From Candidatus Dadabacteria bacterium (lineage in GTDB: Bacteria > Desulfobacterota_D > UBA1144 > Nemesobacterales > Nemesobacteraceae), in contig JAPPAR010000010.1 of NCBI GenBank assembly GCA_026705445.1, positions 1 to 46,834 on the forward strand: a stretch of 46,834 nucleotides of DNA, read 5' to 3'. Both the position numbers and the translations under genes were made by a program. Positions within the stretch are counted from its first letter, which is position 1; each line of letters opens with the position of its first letter. Below are positions 216 through 29,667 of this stretch, one piece after another. Below the pieces are notes generated by a model, which saw nothing but the letters and a program-made list of their open reading frames with translations, was not told the DNA's origin and did no database searches.

Positions 216-1106
216 TCAGGGGGTCCGTGTTGTTTGCCAGGGCAGGTCTCTGTAGAACTGCGAAACCCGTGCGAAACAATCTTCAAAATCCGGCACTTCC
301 CCCAGCTCAAGCTCCATAGTCTGCCAGTCTGCCCCCGACCGTCTTTTTATTTCGGGGTGGTCAAGAGACATACGGGTCGGACTGATGCGGCGCGAGTTGC
401 ATTTCTCGATAAGAGCATCCAGGATCTGCGCACGGCAGGAATCGTCAATCTGGTCATCCGCTATCAGCAGGTCGAGATCATAAACGTCCTGTCGCCGGTT
501 GCGTCTGCGCGCAAGCTGCTGAAGCATGGCGCGATATTTTTCGGCGATGAGATCTACGAGGCCGTAAGCCCGCAGTTGTTGTCCTCCGGTCAGTTCAAGC
601 ACTTGGAATTGTCCCAGCGGTTCATTAAAGGAGATGTCAAGGTTGATCACGCTGGTGGTTTTACCTTCCGAGAGTGCCGTCTCTTCCCTCGTGCCTCGTC
701 GTGCGTAGGCGATTTTTAGTTGCAGTGCGGGGAATTGCGCTTTTTCAAAATCCATTTTTGGCGGGAGGCGCTTCACCGAGTAGGTTCTGACAATGAGGTC
801 GGCATAACCAAGTGCGGTGGCAGCTCTCGGTAGCGCCGAATCCAGAAGTCTTCGGATTTTGTTGTCGACATTGGCCTCTGCGGTGAGATATGTCGTCAGA
901 TCTATATCAGATGTTTGCCTCGGGCTGTCGTAGGCAAGTCCCATCAGGATGCCGCCTTTTAGGAACATCTCCACATTCAGAGGAGTTGTCATGGCGATTG
1001 AATTGAGGACAATCTCGATCGTCTGGCGTTGTCGGTAGGCTGCGGGGTCGGGCTTTGCCCGTTCAACCCAGTCCGCGACTTTGATTTCAAGTACGGGGTT
1101 AGACAT
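216..1106 (-). CDS. AbiEii-family nucleotidyltransferase toxin (AbiE system 1)
   Basis: A 296-residue protein of the AbiEii/AbiGii nucleotidyltransferase family, the toxin half of type IV (AbiE) toxin-antitoxin and phage-abortive systems. Visible hallmarks are a Gly-Gly pair at residues 51-52 in a KGG context, followed by an S-D-I-D-L metal-binding motif (Asp67, Asp69), and a late R-Q-D-V-Y-D-L-D segment (about residue 200) typical of the family. Family members are thought to transfer nucleotides to tRNA acceptor ends; that activity is not shown by this sequence. The ATG overlaps the stop of the upstream antitoxin gene by 8 bases, so translation is probably coupled. Ile is mostly ATC/ATT and Arg mostly CGN, unlike the ATA/AGG-rich neighbours, which suggests transfer. 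Confidence 0.85.
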   Translation of the reverse strand: MSNPVLEIKVADWVERAKPDPAAYRQRQTIEIVLNSIAMTTPLNVEMFLKGGILMGLAYDSPRQTSDIDLTTYLTAEANVDNKIRRLLDSALPRAATALGYADLIVRTYSVKRLPPKMDFEKAQFPALQLKIAYARRGTREETALSEGKTTSVINLDISFNEPLGQFQVLELTGGQQLRAYGLVDLIAEKYRAMLQQLARRRNRRQDVYDLDLLIADDQIDDSCRAQILDALIEKCNSRRISPTRMSLDHPEIKRRSGADWQTMELELGEVPDFEDCFARVSQFYRDLPWQTTRTP

Positions 1107-2007
1107 TAAGCGATATCATCCAGGTTTCGGAAAAAGTAGGCGCATAGGCCTCAGTCGGATCGAGTTTGCGGCTGCTCCCGCGCTGACAGAATTTCTTCCA
1201 ACTCTCAATTGTACCGTGACGCAGGCCCAAGCGCTCTTCAAGTATATAACCGGCCCGACTTTTTACAATGCCGTTTTCGCAAGAGTCGACTGCGGAGACG
1301 ATGTCGTCGAGATAATTTTCCGCGTGCTCTTCCCAGACGTCGAGAATATAAGACATGCCTCCGCACAGATCGGGTCTTCTGAGCATGTCGAGGAACGTCT
1401 GCCCGATCGTAGAGAGACGAAATTCGCTTCCCCGGTTTCTGAGCCACTTCCCCGGTGCCTTGCTTTCGTGAACTCGGATAGCTCGTCGCCTCACGCGGTC
1501 CGGATGCCCTATGATTTTCAACGGGAAAGGAGTGGTTTCGTCTTTGCCCAAGACTTCTTTCATGTAATTCCGAATTCTCTGCGCCGCAGTTCTGCGATCG
1601 GGGCGCGTAAGCATCAAGGCATTCGACCTCCGGTCGGTTAGCCCCCACCGCTGCATGGCAGAGAGGTGGGATACGTAGCATGTCGGGTCGACGAGACAGA
1701 CGATGTCTTCTGCGGGAAGGTCGGAAATGGCCAGCACCCTGATGACGCGTCCGCCGTAATCCCTATCTGTTGCAACTATGGCTGTTTTCTTGAAATCTGA
1801 TATTATCCGGGTGTAGTCGTCTTTCGTCGGAACGTCTCGGCGCAGGTACAGTTTTCTTCCGCCGTGATCCCGATACATTTTCCGAACGATCTGGAAAAAA
1901 TCGAACTCCGTGAGAACTGGCTTGTTATTTTTTTCCAGCAGTTCCGCTAAGTAGCGGCCAGCACGAGTTAGTCTTGTCGGATAGATTATGGGAATTTTGT
2001 TCGGCAC
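1099..2007 (-). CDS. AbiEi-family antitoxin / autoregulator (AbiE system 1)
   Basis: A 302-residue protein placed directly before, and overlapping by 8 bases, an AbiEii toxin gene. Its length, the N-terminal helical region with a possible winged helix (about residues 10-75), and the middle part with the pattern 'YVSHLSAMQRWGLT...R' (about 110-130) fit the AbiEi antitoxin/transcriptional regulator family. AbiEi proteins neutralise the toxin gene's effect without tight binding to the toxin and repress their own operon. The start is GTG at 2007, since no in-frame ATG is available; a purine-rich AGAGAG lies about 10 bases upstream. A perfect 23-bp-arm dyad 15 bases upstream is the likely binding site. 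The antitoxin call rests on context and general family pattern. Confidence 0.8.
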   Translation of the reverse strand: MPNKIPIIYPTRLTRAGRYLAELLEKNNKPVLTEFDFFQIVRKMYRDHGGRKLYLRRDVPTKDDYTRIISDFKKTAIVATDRDYGGRVIRVLAISDLPAEDIVCLVDPTCYVSHLSAMQRWGLTDRRSNALMLTRPDRRTAAQRIRNYMKEVLGKDETTPFPLKIIGHPDRVRRRAIRVHESKAPGKWLRNRGSEFRLSTIGQTFLDMLRRPDLCGGMSYILDVWEEHAENYLDDIVSAVDSCENGIVKSRAGYILEERLGLRHGTIESWKKFCQRGSSRKLDPTEAYAPTFSETWMISLNV

Positions 2008-2022
2008 GGTTCTAAACTCTCT

Positions 2023-2069
2023 TTCCTGTTTCCGTTATATGTCCTTAGGACATATAACGGAAACAGGAA
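2023..2069. promoter_or_regulatory. Perfect 47-bp dyad, candidate AbiEi operator
   Basis: Two perfectly complementary 23-base arms (2023-2045 and 2047-2069) flank a single central T at 2046. The dyad lies 15 bases before the GTG of the abiEi-like gene and covers the predicted -10. AbiEi proteins are known to bind 23-bp inverted repeats in their own promoter. The inferred transcription start falls near the dyad centre, so the full hairpin would not be in the mRNA from this promoter. That favours a DNA operator over an RNA structure. Confidence 0.7.
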
Positions 2070-2079
2070 GGGAAGTCAA
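2051..2079 (-). promoter_or_regulatory. Predicted sigma-70-type promoter of AbiE system 1
   Basis: On the minus strand TTGACT (2079-2074) is followed after 17 bases by TATATG (2056-2051). The -10 lies inside the right arm of the perfect dyad, so a bound repressor would block RNA polymerase. Confidence 0.5.
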
Positions 2080-2965: not shown

Positions 2966-3697
2966 TCAGATTGCCTTTCGCTCCTTCTCGATCCGGTCGT
3001 AGGCATCGTTTATGACTGCGAGCTTCTCGTTTGCCGCATCAACAAATTCCTGGGGAACGCCTTGGGCGATCAGGCTGTCGGGATGGTGCGCGCGGACAAG
3101 TTCGCGGTACTTGCTTTTAAGTTCGTTGTCCGAGATGTCCCTTGTAACTCCCAGGACTTCGTACGGATCCGGCTTGTCGACGCCATGTGCGGCGCGAATC
3201 CGCCTGAATGCCGCTTCGCTCAGTCCGAATATCTCGGCCACGCTTTTGAGATACTCATTTTCCTTGGTGTGGTAGACGTTATCGGCCTTGGCGATGAGAA
3301 ACAGGCAGTTTAAAAGCTCCTCAAGAACTGCGGGGTTGCCCCTGAACATTTCGGCAAGCTGCTGTGCGTAGGGCTCAAAGCCTTCTGAGTCTTTCTTAGC
3401 GATATTGAAGACGCGGGCAACCTCGGCTTCTTTTACCTCGTCCCTCAGGATCGGATGAAACACCTTTCGGAAAGCTTGGATCTCCTCTTCGCTTACTACC
3501 CCGTCAGCTTTAGCCATCTTGGCCGCCAACACTATAACTCCGGCCGTGAAGGCGATCTGTTTTCTCGAGCGCGTGTCGGTTGGTCGCTCCCCGGTATCCA
3601 CGAACGCGTGACCCGCCATGGCACCGAGCAACTCACCGATAGGGCCACCGAGAGCAAAACCCGCGGCACCGCCGATTATTTTTCCCCATACGCTCAT
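2966..3697 (-). CDS. djlA: DjlA-like co-chaperone (TerB domain plus J domain)
   Basis: A 243-residue protein with three parts. Residues 1-32 form a Gly-rich hydrophobic N-terminus, probably a membrane anchor. Residues about 45-165 are an acidic helical TerB/DjlA-type domain. Residues about 177-240 are a C-terminal J domain with the HPD tripeptide at 205-207 that stimulates DnaK ATPase. This order matches DjlA, the inner-membrane J protein. ATG 3697 is preceded by a strong AGAGGAG. It follows the DUF4403 gene on the same strand with an 81-base gap, so the two may share a transcript. Confidence 0.88.
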   Translation of the reverse strand: MSVWGKIIGGAAGFALGGPIGELLGAMAGHAFVDTGERPTDTRSRKQIAFTAGVIVLAAKMAKADGVVSEEEIQAFRKVFHPILRDEVKEAEVARVFNIAKKDSEGFEPYAQQLAEMFRGNPAVLEELLNCLFLIAKADNVYHTKENEYLKSVAEIFGLSEAAFRRIRAAHGVDKPDPYEVLGVTRDISDNELKSKYRELVRAHHPDSLIAQGVPQEFVDAANEKLAVINDAYDRIEKERKAI

Positions 3698-3749
3698 ATG
3701 ATTTTCTCCTCTAAAAAATGTACCAGAAAAACTCCACTTCGAAATCTCC

Positions 3750-3764
3750 TCCAGAACTTCTGGA
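3750..3764. promoter_or_regulatory. Short perfect dyad between DUF4403 gene and djlA
   Basis: TCCAGAA (3750-3756) and TTCTGGA (3758-3764) are perfect complements around one C. It lies in the 81-base gap upstream of djlA and could be a regulator site. The arms are too close together for a good RNA hairpin. No regulator can be named. Confidence 0.25.
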
Positions 3765-3778
3765 CGCGAAAAAATACG

Positions 3779-5275
3779 CTAAGGAATTGCCTGCACTCTT
3801 GCCCTAACCCTGCCTTCTGCCGTGAGGACTAAACGCAGGTGTTCGGGCCCCACGTCAAGGCGGGTCAGGCGCACCTGGCGCACCTTGCCCGTAACCGAGA
3901 CGTTCTCCGATGAAAGCGCCAAGATCGCGTCCTCCGCACCGTCTCGCAGTTCCTCAAGCTTAGGCCCGAGATCGAATGGAAGACGCTTTGAGATGGCTTC
4001 CAGTAGCAGTGGCTCCGCTGCCTTTCCAGCCATTGAGAAAAGCACGTTTTGCGAATCGATATCGAGTGCTACGTTTTCCAGCGTTATGGTCTGAGTCTCG
4101 GCGTCTAGTTCCGGTTCGGCAACCACGTACAGGATTCCCTTCACTTCCGTGTCTGAGAGGATTTTGGCCTCCACAGCCACCGTGGTTTCAAGCAGAAGCT
4201 TTTCTCCATACGGGTGAACCCTTATTGCCTTTATGGCTATGGAGATGTTTTTGCCCACAGACTTGCCGACTACCTCCTCGGCGAGTGTTCGCTCAAGCGT
4301 TTCGTAGTCGAGTATGGTGGGCATAATGATTTCGAAGCCTTCTGGCTTTGGCTTTTCTAGGAGCAGGGTTCTCGGGAAGGGGCATTCTGGCTGCGTTTGC
4401 TCTGTCAGGATGCGCGTTTTTACTTCAACTCCAATCGTAGTGCGGATGTCTTTGCGGCCGATGCGGATCTGTGCTGCGCGCGCAACTACGGGCCTTGTTT
4501 CAAGCCAGAGATCCGAGTCTTCTCCAAGCGGTGTTGAACCGCAAAGCCTCTTCCAGCCTTTTCTTACCGCCTGCTCAAAAAAATCGCTCCTGGCCACGCT
4601 TTGGTTAAGTTGCGTGCGAAGCGCATCGGCCGTGATTCGAACTCCGGGAAGTATATCTCCTCTTACGTCAAGGCTTCCAATGCGTTTTATCGGTATGTCG
4701 GCCTTTTGTATATCTATTTTTACCTCGGAGAGGTTCGGGGATACGCGCCAGTTGGTCTCAAGGGTCGGACTCGCGGTGAGGGAGACGCTTGCAAGTACGT
4801 CGCCGCGTGCGTTTACGTCAAACTTTCTTATCAGCCGAAGAGTCCCCGCTGCGCGAGCCTCTCCGCTAAGCCCGGTCGCTATGTCCAGCGCTCCGCTTCG
4901 GCCCAATACCTGAAGACGGGAACGGCTTAGATTCCAGCTGAGTTCGCTTTGGGCGAAAGGTCTTCCGAGACTGTTTTTCCTTGAACCCGACTCCTGCTTC
5001 GGCGTCTTGCGCTCAAGCGCTTCCTCTATTGCAGCTATGGGAACGGAGACTGGGATAGTTGCTCTTGAAAGATGCTCCGCAAGCGGTTCAAGCGCCGGGG
5101 TCTTGTGAGTGGGTCTTTCGGCGTCATGCCTCGACACGTTCTCCGAGAGGAAAACCCCCGCCGCGAGAATCACCCCGAGCACGAAAATGACCAGTATTAT
5201 CCTTCCCATATTGAGGATATATGGTAAGGGAATTTCTGCGAATTTAAAGATTTTGGTCTCTTTGGGAGATTTCAT
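3779..5275 (-). CDS. DUF4403 family membrane-anchored periplasmic protein
   Basis: A 498-residue protein with a single hydrophobic segment at about residues 26-45, then a long soluble region. The segment after the anchor (about 65-90: 'LSRATIPVSVPIAAIEEAL') and the repeated beta-rich halves resemble DUF4403 proteins, which are predicted periplasmic or lipid-associated proteins of unknown role. The ATG at 5275 has no good ribosome site. An internal ATG at 5209 (MGRIIL...) begins just before the membrane segment and may be the true start. It is followed by djlA on the same strand. Function unknown. Confidence 0.7.
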   Translation of the reverse strand: MKSPKETKIFKFAEIPLPYILNMGRIILVIFVLGVILAAGVFLSENVSRHDAERPTHKTPALEPLAEHLSRATIPVSVPIAAIEEALERKTPKQESGSRKNSLGRPFAQSELSWNLSRSRLQVLGRSGALDIATGLSGEARAAGTLRLIRKFDVNARGDVLASVSLTASPTLETNWRVSPNLSEVKIDIQKADIPIKRIGSLDVRGDILPGVRITADALRTQLNQSVARSDFFEQAVRKGWKRLCGSTPLGEDSDLWLETRPVVARAAQIRIGRKDIRTTIGVEVKTRILTEQTQPECPFPRTLLLEKPKPEGFEIIMPTILDYETLERTLAEEVVGKSVGKNISIAIKAIRVHPYGEKLLLETTVAVEAKILSDTEVKGILYVVAEPELDAETQTITLENVALDIDSQNVLFSMAGKAAEPLLLEAISKRLPFDLGPKLEELRDGAEDAILALSSENVSVTGKVRQVRLTRLDVGPEHLRLVLTAEGRVRARVQAIP

Positions 5276-27456: not shown

Positions 27457-28269
27457 ATGAAGGAAATTAATACACATTTGCCTGCAGGAAGAGCGAAGCT
27501 TGTAGCAGTGATTAAGGCCGCTGGTGATGTTGTGACTATTGACGATGCGGTGCATACCCTTAACTTCTCCCGCACCCAAGCGGCCAAGATACTGTCGCGT
27601 TGGACAGAACAAGGATGGTTGCGGCGCGTGGGTACCGGAACCTATGTTCCGGTCCAGATTGATATGCTGGATACAGATCAAGTTGTTCAAGATCCTTGGG
27701 TTTTAATTCCTGCCTTGTTTGATCCGGCATACATTGGCGGATACACTGCCGCCGAGCACTGGGATCTCACGGAACAGATATTCAGAGATATTGTAATCTT
27801 TACGGCTCGGCGGCCCAGAGTAAAATCACTCAAACGGCAAGGGGCTGTATTCACTTTTTTTCCTGTTCGCGATGATCATATTTTTGGTACTGAATTTGTC
27901 TGGCGCGGGCAGACCAGAATAGAGGTTTCCGATATACACCGGACAATCGTTGACATGCTAAATAAACCTGCTGTTGGAGGAGGTATTCAGCATGTTGCCG
28001 ATTGCTTCGAACAATACATGAAACGGCGAGACAGCGATCCAAACAAACTGATCGATTATGCTGACCGCATTGGCAATGGAGCGGTTTTCAAGCGCCTTGG
28101 ATTTCTTGCGGAACGTTCGCAAAAAGGAGTTGAATTGATAGCTGCCTGCAGAGCGCGTCTTACCGAAGGCAATGCTCTCTTGGATCCAAGTCTTCGTTGT
28201 CCTCGGCTGATTACTCGCTGGCGTCTGTGGGTAACCAACATGTGGGCTCGTCAAGGAGTCAATAAATGA
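27457..28269 (+). CDS. AbiEi-family antitoxin / autoregulator (AbiE system 2)
   Basis: A 270-residue protein. The N-terminal winged helix (about 12-55: 'VTIDDAVHTLNFSRTQAAKILSRWTEQGWLRRVGTGTYVP') and the following 'IGGYTAAEHWDLTEQIF' segment are typical of AbiEi antitoxins. They repress their own operon and counter the paired nucleotidyltransferase toxin. No Shine-Dalgarno precedes ATG 27457. Its TGA overlaps an ATG at 28266 (ATGA), the expected start of the toxin gene. Codon choice (ATT Ile, CGN Arg) differs from nadE and birA nearby, pointing to acquisition by transfer. Confidence 0.88.
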   Translation: MKEINTHLPAGRAKLVAVIKAAGDVVTIDDAVHTLNFSRTQAAKILSRWTEQGWLRRVGTGTYVPVQIDMLDTDQVVQDPWVLIPALFDPAYIGGYTAAEHWDLTEQIFRDIVIFTARRPRVKSLKRQGAVFTFFPVRDDHIFGTEFVWRGQTRIEVSDIHRTIVDMLNKPAVGGGIQHVADCFEQYMKRRDSDPNKLIDYADRIGNGAVFKRLGFLAERSQKGVELIAACRARLTEGNALLDPSLRCPRLITRWRLWVTNMWARQGVNK

Positions 28270-28373
28270 TTCCAAAACATGAGCTTCTGAAAATTGCGAC
28301 CACAATCAGCCTCAATCCAAAGTATTGTCGAGAAAGACTATGCGCTAGGTTGGATGTTGGCAGGAATTTTTAA
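28266..28373 (+). other. Out-of-frame 5' end of the system 2 toxin gene (1-nt frameshift)
   Basis: ATG 28266, overlapping the antitoxin stop as ATGA, begins M-I-P-K-H-E-L-L-K-I, the usual start of AbiEii toxins, but hits TAA at 28371-28373. The next family block, S-I-V-E-K-D-Y-A-L-G-W, is in the +1 frame from about 28322. Removing one A from the AAA at 28319-28321 would join both halves into one protein. The change is either a recent mutation, an assembly or homopolymer error, or less likely programmed frameshifting. Confidence 0.75.
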
Positions 28374-29667
28374 CCATGGTGAACTGACCAAGAGTTGGAT
28401 TTTCAAGGGTGGTACTTGCCTCAAGAAATGTTATTTTGAAACCTATCGTTTTTCCGAAGATCTTGACTTCACGCTCTTGTTGGAAGACCATCTCAATGAA
28501 GAGTTTCTGCGGCGTATTTTTGGAGAGATATCGGAATGGATCTACCAGCAAGTCGGTCTCGAGTTTCCTGTGAACTTGCAGTCATTTGAGATTTATAAGA
28601 ATCCCCGGGGGAATCTCAGTTGTCGGGCTAAACTTAGTTATCGCGGTCCGGTTTCTCCAAGTTCTGGGGGATTGCCACGAATCAAGCTTGACCTTACCGC
28701 CGACGAACTCCTTGTTCTACCGCCTGTACGGATACCGATTTTGCATCCCTACAGCGATGCTCCAGCCGAAGGCATTCAAGTTCTAGCCTATGCATATGAA
28801 GAGGTCTTCGCCGAGAAGATCAGGGCACTTGCTGAGCGTACAAGGCCGCGTGACCTCTACGATGTTATAAACTTGTTCAGGAACACCAAATCTAGGCCTT
28901 CGGCCTCGGTGTTGCTTCATATTCTCAGTCGGAAATGCGAATTCAAAGGTATTTCAGTACCGCAACACGGGGACTTTGACGAACATCAAAGTGACCTTGA
29001 AGGCGGATGGGATATGATGCTGGAGCATCAACTTCCAGCATTACCGCCAGTGTCTACATTTTGGAACGTTTTGCCGGAGCTTTTTGCCTGGCTTGACGGA
29101 GGTTTATTTCCCCAAGTGCCTCTTTCCTATGAGCTTGAGCGTGGCGATACTATTATTCGTGAACGCACGTTAAATTTGCCGCTATCTAGCAATGCGCAAT
29201 CCTACCTTGAGATCATTCGATTTGCAGCCTCTAACAGACTTTGTGTCGATCTTGGCTACGCCAGCAAGACTCGACGGATCGAACCATACTCTTTGCGGCT
29301 TACAAAAGAAGGCAACTTCATCCTGCACGCATGGAATGTTGATAGTGATGCACACCGCAGTTACCGCATCGACCGGATTGAAGGTGCCAAAATTACTGGA
29401 CAGAATTTTTCACCGAGATACGAGGTTGAACTTATTCCGACAGGCCCAATTACTGTGCAGGAGACACAAGGGTCTACAGGATTCTCCATACGTAATACGG
29501 TAAGATCTATATCGCGAAACTATGGACCGATTTACATTCTCGAGTGTGGCCTGTGCGGCAAAAAATTCCGCAGAAAAACTTCTTCCAGAACTCTTAGAAA
29601 ACACAAAACTCCAGACGGATTTTCATGCTCCGGTCGCACAGGGTATTTAATCGACATCAAGTATTGA
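28294..29667 (+). CDS. AbiEii nucleotidyltransferase toxin fused to WYL-like and zinc-finger-like domains
   Basis: A 457-codon frame from TTG 28294; the native start is probably ATG 28266 in another frame. Residues about 10-200 are AbiEii: K-G-G at 38-40, E-D-L-D-F at 55-59, and 'AEKIRALAERTRPRDLYD' at 173-190. Residues about 303-380 resemble a WYL ligand-sensing domain, with 'IRFAASNRLCVDLGYASKTRRIEPYSL' style spacing and R-x-Y-R-I-D-R-I (355-362). The tail has Cys418, Cys421, His437 and Cys445 in a zinc-finger-like arrangement. Typical AbiEii toxins are about 300 residues, so the added 150-residue tail is unusual. It may let a ligand or nucleic acid control the toxin. The 1-nt frameshift may mean the copy is inactive. 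Confidence 0.8.
   Translation: MRPQSASIQSIVEKDYALGWMLAGIFNHGELTKSWIFKGGTCLKKCYFETYRFSEDLDFTLLLEDHLNEEFLRRIFGEISEWIYQQVGLEFPVNLQSFEIYKNPRGNLSCRAKLSYRGPVSPSSGGLPRIKLDLTADELLVLPPVRIPILHPYSDAPAEGIQVLAYAYEEVFAEKIRALAERTRPRDLYDVINLFRNTKSRPSASVLLHILSRKCEFKGISVPQHGDFDEHQSDLEGGWDMMLEHQLPALPPVSTFWNVLPELFAWLDGGLFPQVPLSYELERGDTIIRERTLNLPLSSNAQSYLEIIRFAASNRLCVDLGYASKTRRIEPYSLRLTKEGNFILHAWNVDSDAHRSYRIDRIEGAKITGQNFSPRYEVELIPTGPITVQETQGSTGFSIRNTVRSISRNYGPIYILECGLCGKKFRRKTSSRTLRKHKTPDGFSCSGRTGYLIDIKY

Follow-up and report, generated by a model that had tools for sequence, protein, structure and literature searches.

Gene content and promoter of the locus

The window analysed here, a stretch of 46,834 nucleotides from a Candidatus Dadabacteria genome, carries an AbiE gene pair together with a palindromic promoter element (Table 1). 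The abiEi product was identified as AbiEi by PADLOC (PDLC02237, E 1.5e-98), and no significant match was found in Pfam or in a sequence search against the PDB. When its AlphaFold2 model (pLDDT 87.5) was searched with Foldseek, the best PDB matches were the AbiEi of S. agalactiae (6y8q, 1.8e-5) and Rv2827c (1zel, 7.8e-5), and the model is consistent with an AbiEi antitoxin consisting of an N-terminal winged helix and a C-terminal domain. Together with the adjacent nucleotidyltransferase toxin AbiEii, the regulator appears to form a type IV toxin-antitoxin system, and 74 of 76 related loci have an AbiEii homologue downstream. A second AbiE system at 27457-29667 consists of an AbiEi_4-type regulator and, after it, an AbiEii that carries a fused WYL domain at its C-terminus (PF08843, 6.1e-37; PF13280, 3.4e-7); no perfect palindrome is found at this second locus.

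Table 1 Features of the abiE locus and its promoter in the window.
Feature	Position	Strand	Details
abiEii, nucleotidyltransferase toxin gene	216..1106	-	overlaps abiEi; Pfam PF08843 1.8e-25; PADLOC PDLC02306 8.1e-103
abiEi, antitoxin/regulator gene	1099..2007	-	302 aa; GTG start; N-terminal winged-helix domain
Perfect palindrome	2023..2069	.	arms 2023-2045 and 2047-2069, centre T2046
Palindrome core	2041-2051		GTCCTTAGGAC; within the perfect palindrome
-10 hexamer TATATG	2051..2056	-	from sequence; inside palindrome arm
-35 hexamer TTGACT	2074..2079	-	from sequence; TTGAC at equivalent place in relatives

The two promoter hexamers are separated by 17 bp on the minus strand, and counting from the -35 places the predicted +1 at about 2044, at most about 2 nt from the palindrome centre. 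Among 91 proximal palindromes of relatives, TTGAC occurs at the equivalent place in 72, with the -35 lying 31-38 nt from the centre in 72 and on the mirrored side in 9. The dyad lies 15 bp (2008-2022) upstream of the abiEi start codon, a GTG at 2005-2007. The initial annotation had described 23-bp perfect arms around one T, covering the -10 of a TTGACT-17-TATATG promoter at 15 bp from the antitoxin start, and the coordinates agree with this description throughout.

The palindrome

The element is a perfect dyad of 47 bp with the geometry 23-1-23, zero mismatches and a central T that is A when read along the abiEi strand. No other perfect dyad of the window is as long, the runner-up having arms of 9 bp, and in 20 Markov-1 shuffles of the window the longest perfect arm was at most 11 bp; a dyad of this kind is not expected by chance. 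Querying the 1.78-Mb genome with the half-palindrome, allowing up to 3 mismatches, gave no second site. The element is thus single copy in the genome and not a member of a dispersed repeat family, which the initial annotation had named as one of two observations that would refute an operator.

Occurrence among related loci

A search across bacterial and archaeal genomes yielded 80 loci of this AbiEi subfamily, and palindromes were counted where at least 400 bp of upstream DNA was available and the perfect arms were at least 16 bp long. One or two perfect palindromes were found in 73 of 75 loci of the subfamily, but in no case among 37 loci from other AbiEi subfamilies, the second AbiE of the window included. 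The perfect dyad is conserved, while the outer letters differ between loci; the recent origin suggested by the initial annotation is wrong, since the feature spans many phyla. Even among close relatives the letters change: two orthologues from Dadabacteria, of 85% and 83% identity, carry perfect dyads at the equivalent place but with another outer sequence, and in a comparison of three Dadabacteria orthologues all are perfect, yet 3-4 of 14 positions differ (k 7-20, k being the position in the arm counted from the centre). Plasmid loci at 28-45% identity have perfect palindromes in 14 of 14 cases. Loci with two palindromes are numerous, with a median centre-to-centre distance of 102 bp, and the distal one is in tandem at 20 loci and divergent at 24, while another 20 lack a clear -35 there.

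When eight genomes were searched for the core, it was found only at abiE loci, apart from three chance matches, and no core with palindromic flanks was present away from abiE in these genomes. Within the subfamily, one locus has a short palindrome (L056, arm of 10) and another has none (L130). Just one relative, an Arenicellales abiEi homologue (L053, 3001-3882), has an in-frame stop, a single one, and its promoter is without a palindrome, which favours an operator read by AbiEi although it is a single case; a second abiEi copy on the same chromosome (L054) retains a palindrome with 17-bp arms. On the E. coli plasmid pDW54_3 a PP2C-type phosphatase gene (3344-3997 of locus L147) follows abiEii with a 4-bp overlap, and in the 4.7-kb enterobacterial abiE plasmids such a gene is placed as if in the abiE operon. 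AbiEi was not found in phage records or viral contigs. The core occurs in 43 stretches of viral contigs, of which two show arms of 18-19 bp at unrelated places; these two palindromes (L191 at 5490, arms of 19 bp; L198 at 231, arms of 18 bp) adjoin phage genes, and no AbiEi homologue lies near them.

Conservation of pairing and drift of sequence

Across 147 distinct palindromes, the only conserved parts are the core GTCCTnAGGAC and a -10-like TATA. Positions 1-4 do not vary among the 145 distinct arms, position 5 hardly varies and position 6 is C or T; a TATA-like bias follows at positions 7-10, whereas positions 11-22 carry at most 0.21 bits and positions 15-22 only 0.01-0.18 bits. The two halves nevertheless match each other in 100% of cases at k 1-10, in at least 98.6% up to k 18 and in 97% at k 19, falling to 90% at k 21, 61% at k 23 and background from k 24; palindromes entered the sample if they had the core and an arm of 9 or more, which fixes the first positions by selection but not positions 10-22. 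A count of 415 paired and 0 unpaired changes arises by construction, as the arms were cut at perfect length, and is not evidence. In highly diverged loci the arm lengths concentrate between 20 and 25, and the two palindromes of one promoter have equal arm length in 35 of 61 cases (12.5 expected). The clearest single internal mismatch, CTAAGTCCT vs AGGACATAG at position 6 from the centre, is seen in the distal palindrome (about -139) of locus L097 and is possibly an intermediate. Bacteria thus seem to keep the pairing, not the letters, of these palindromes, and the strong selection suggested by the initial annotation is, if taken to act on the sequence, not the explanation for the outer arm, which drifts freely at a roughly neutral pace with complementarity as the conserved property.

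The rate of this drift can be compared with that of synonymous sites. At k 11-20, the paired arm difference between close orthologues was 0.289 against 0.183 at four-fold synonymous sites, and in a second comparison 0.050 against 0.034, with the orthologue pairs not all independent. The arms diverge in pairs at a rate at least equal to that of four-fold sites, as estimated from few positions. If pairs arose by separate point mutations under selection, population genetics would predict paired change far slower than neutral.

The centres are hypervariable. Six near-identical 4.7-kb E. coli plasmids vary at three sites over the 3.4 kb surrounding the operon. Two of these sites are the palindrome centres, which occur as T, A or C and, for T and A, in all four combinations. 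Of 20 E. coli records, 12 have T and 6 have A at the distal centre, and 16 have T and 2 have A at the proximal centre, the remainder being unresolved. In published work, template switching is marked by spacer inversion combined with homogenised arms (PMC8604942, PMC8794818), and the mechanism has also been described for E. coli quasipalindromes (PMC7202029). Both paired arm changes with few mismatched intermediates and T/A alternation between perfect arms are seen here, as expected of a template-switch-maintained inverted repeat; the one centre changed to C cannot come from inversion alone, and few sites underlie the inferred rate of template switching. In simulations, copying without selection eroded the arms until, at saturation, their median was about 10-19 bp, so that selection on arm length or symmetry is also needed.

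Interpretation

We consider it most probable (roughly 0.6) that the palindrome is an autoregulatory AbiEi operator placed at the transcription start site, with halves kept identical by frequent hairpin template switching and by selection for pairing. In proven AbiEi operators, autorepression works through two inverted half-sites, each of 23 bp, that lie on the promoter (PMC3985639, PMC7319586). Here, too, two inverted half-sites of about 23 bp overlap an abiE promoter, and the operator reading is preferred because half-site length, place and partner match the proven cases; the operator proposed by the initial annotation is in this respect well supported by comparison, given the AbiEi neighbour, a similar geometry and the restriction to one subfamily among the loci compared. 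The element would be the subfamily-specific form of the known AbiEi operator in the abiEi-abiEii promoter. RNA polymerase would start at the palindrome centre, and AbiEi on both half-sites would cover the -10 and the start and thereby repress. Outside the core the arms are held by complementarity, not by sequence: hairpins formed during DNA copying may allow one arm to be rewritten from the other, as the signature of paired change and hypervariable centres suggests, so that arm sequence drifts while the halves stay identical. Selection must act too, since copying alone would erode the arms, and would favour symmetry or pairability over about 21-24 bp in each arm.

Although it accounts for the core, a conventional sequence-specific operator leaves the arms unexplained. 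If AbiEi read the arms, the palindromes of one promoter should resemble each other more than that of the nearest relative, and this is not so: the matches number 234 with the same-promoter partner vs 229 with the nearest relative at k 7-14, and 144 vs 151 at k 15-22. AbiEi thus appears to impose no locus-specific arm; an apparent signal of such reading, positive without phylogenetic control, vanished against nearest relatives. That every base is contacted by AbiEi and that compensating point mutations accumulate singly under purifying selection only is therefore improbable, even though the half-site length equals that of known AbiEi boxes (PMC3985639) and the core is strongly conserved, because paired change at a roughly neutral rate with mismatched intermediates nearly absent is unlike two independent point mutations, and arms within one promoter are unmatched beyond lineage level. 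The operator model leaves unexplained why free positions must match, and this, together with the lack of a locus-specific arm, makes pairing itself, as hairpin or cruciform, a serious rival. The functional state would then be the extruded structure, a cruciform having been raised by the initial annotation as well. Extrusion would be driven by supercoiling, or by polymerase as it opens the centre, and would either remove the -10 from the promoter or show the structure to AbiEi; it needs arms that are perfectly paired and about 22 bp long, and nothing more. We regard such a switch as rather doubtful. In its favour, pairing is conserved where sequence is not, mismatches of any kind are very few, and same-promoter palindromes are alike in length and not in arm sequence beyond lineage level. 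Arms of 21-24 bp would extrude at a sigma of about -0.027 to -0.036, near physiological, a value that is suggestive only and depends on assumed textbook-type constants with a formation cost of 15-18 kcal/mol. Against it, the core GTCCTnAGGAC is not AT-rich, from which slow extrusion is expected, the energy constants are assumed, and a sequence-conserved core better suits reading by a protein. An RNA hairpin is out as the selected state: it would tolerate G-U, for which the near absence of mismatches leaves no room, and with the predicted start at the centre a normal transcript carries one arm only. A wider formulation, which we advance tentatively as a possibility with appreciable weight, is that outside the short core the heritable content would be self-complementarity, with a DNA hairpin or cruciform of set length as the working switch, kept perfect by arm-to-arm copying.

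The arms might also be functionless, with template switching keeping any perfect palindrome perfect. Hypervariable centres and a published mechanism (PMC8604942, PMC7202029) speak for such a mutational relic, which is nonetheless quite improbable: the arms simulated without selection are shorter than those of highly diverged loci, arm length is common to the palindromes within loci, and other AbiEi promoters are without such palindromes. Perfect palindromes can act as terminators or mobile-element ends, and the element might be a dispersed repeat, terminator or recombination site unconnected to abiE. This is hardly credible for an element that lies on the abiE promoter in nearly all relatives; its repeat form is refuted by the single genomic copy and rejected also by the abiE-specific core, which has no palindromic flanks elsewhere in the eight genomes.

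Significance and comparison with known systems

Operators are normally known by their conserved letters, whereas these approximately 150 natural palindromes from many phyla combine exact pairing with nearly neutral drift of letters. The set makes possible a direct test of whether DNA hairpins or cruciforms serve as bacterial regulatory states, allows the rate at which template switching rewrites inverted repeats in nature to be tested, and offers a simple signature in the sequence by which this AbiE subfamily can be found. No description of these palindromes was found in the open-access literature searched.

The closest parallel is the AbiEi operator of S. agalactiae (PMC3985639; Hampton et al. 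2018), where an AbiEi-type regulator likewise has two close 23-bp inverted half-sites over the abiE promoter. That operator has the geometry 23-3-23, mismatches at 4 of 23 positions and the -35 in its left arm, whereas here the centre is 1 nt at the start site, the arms are perfect, the core GTCCTnAGGAC is conserved and relatives often have two palindromes about 102 bp apart. Rv2827c of Mycobacterium tuberculosis, which has an AbiEi-like fold, has two pairs of 23-bp inverted repeats upstream (PMC7319586), comparable to the two palindromes in many relatives; unlike here, its repeats are spaced by 13 bp within a pair, match the consensus unequally and are bound with negative co-operativity. Template-switch inverted repeats described elsewhere share the arm homogenisation and spacer inversion (PMC8794818, PMC8604942), but those are RNA stems and yeast coding repeats, whereas the present element is a promoter element found in many phyla with perfect arms of set length.
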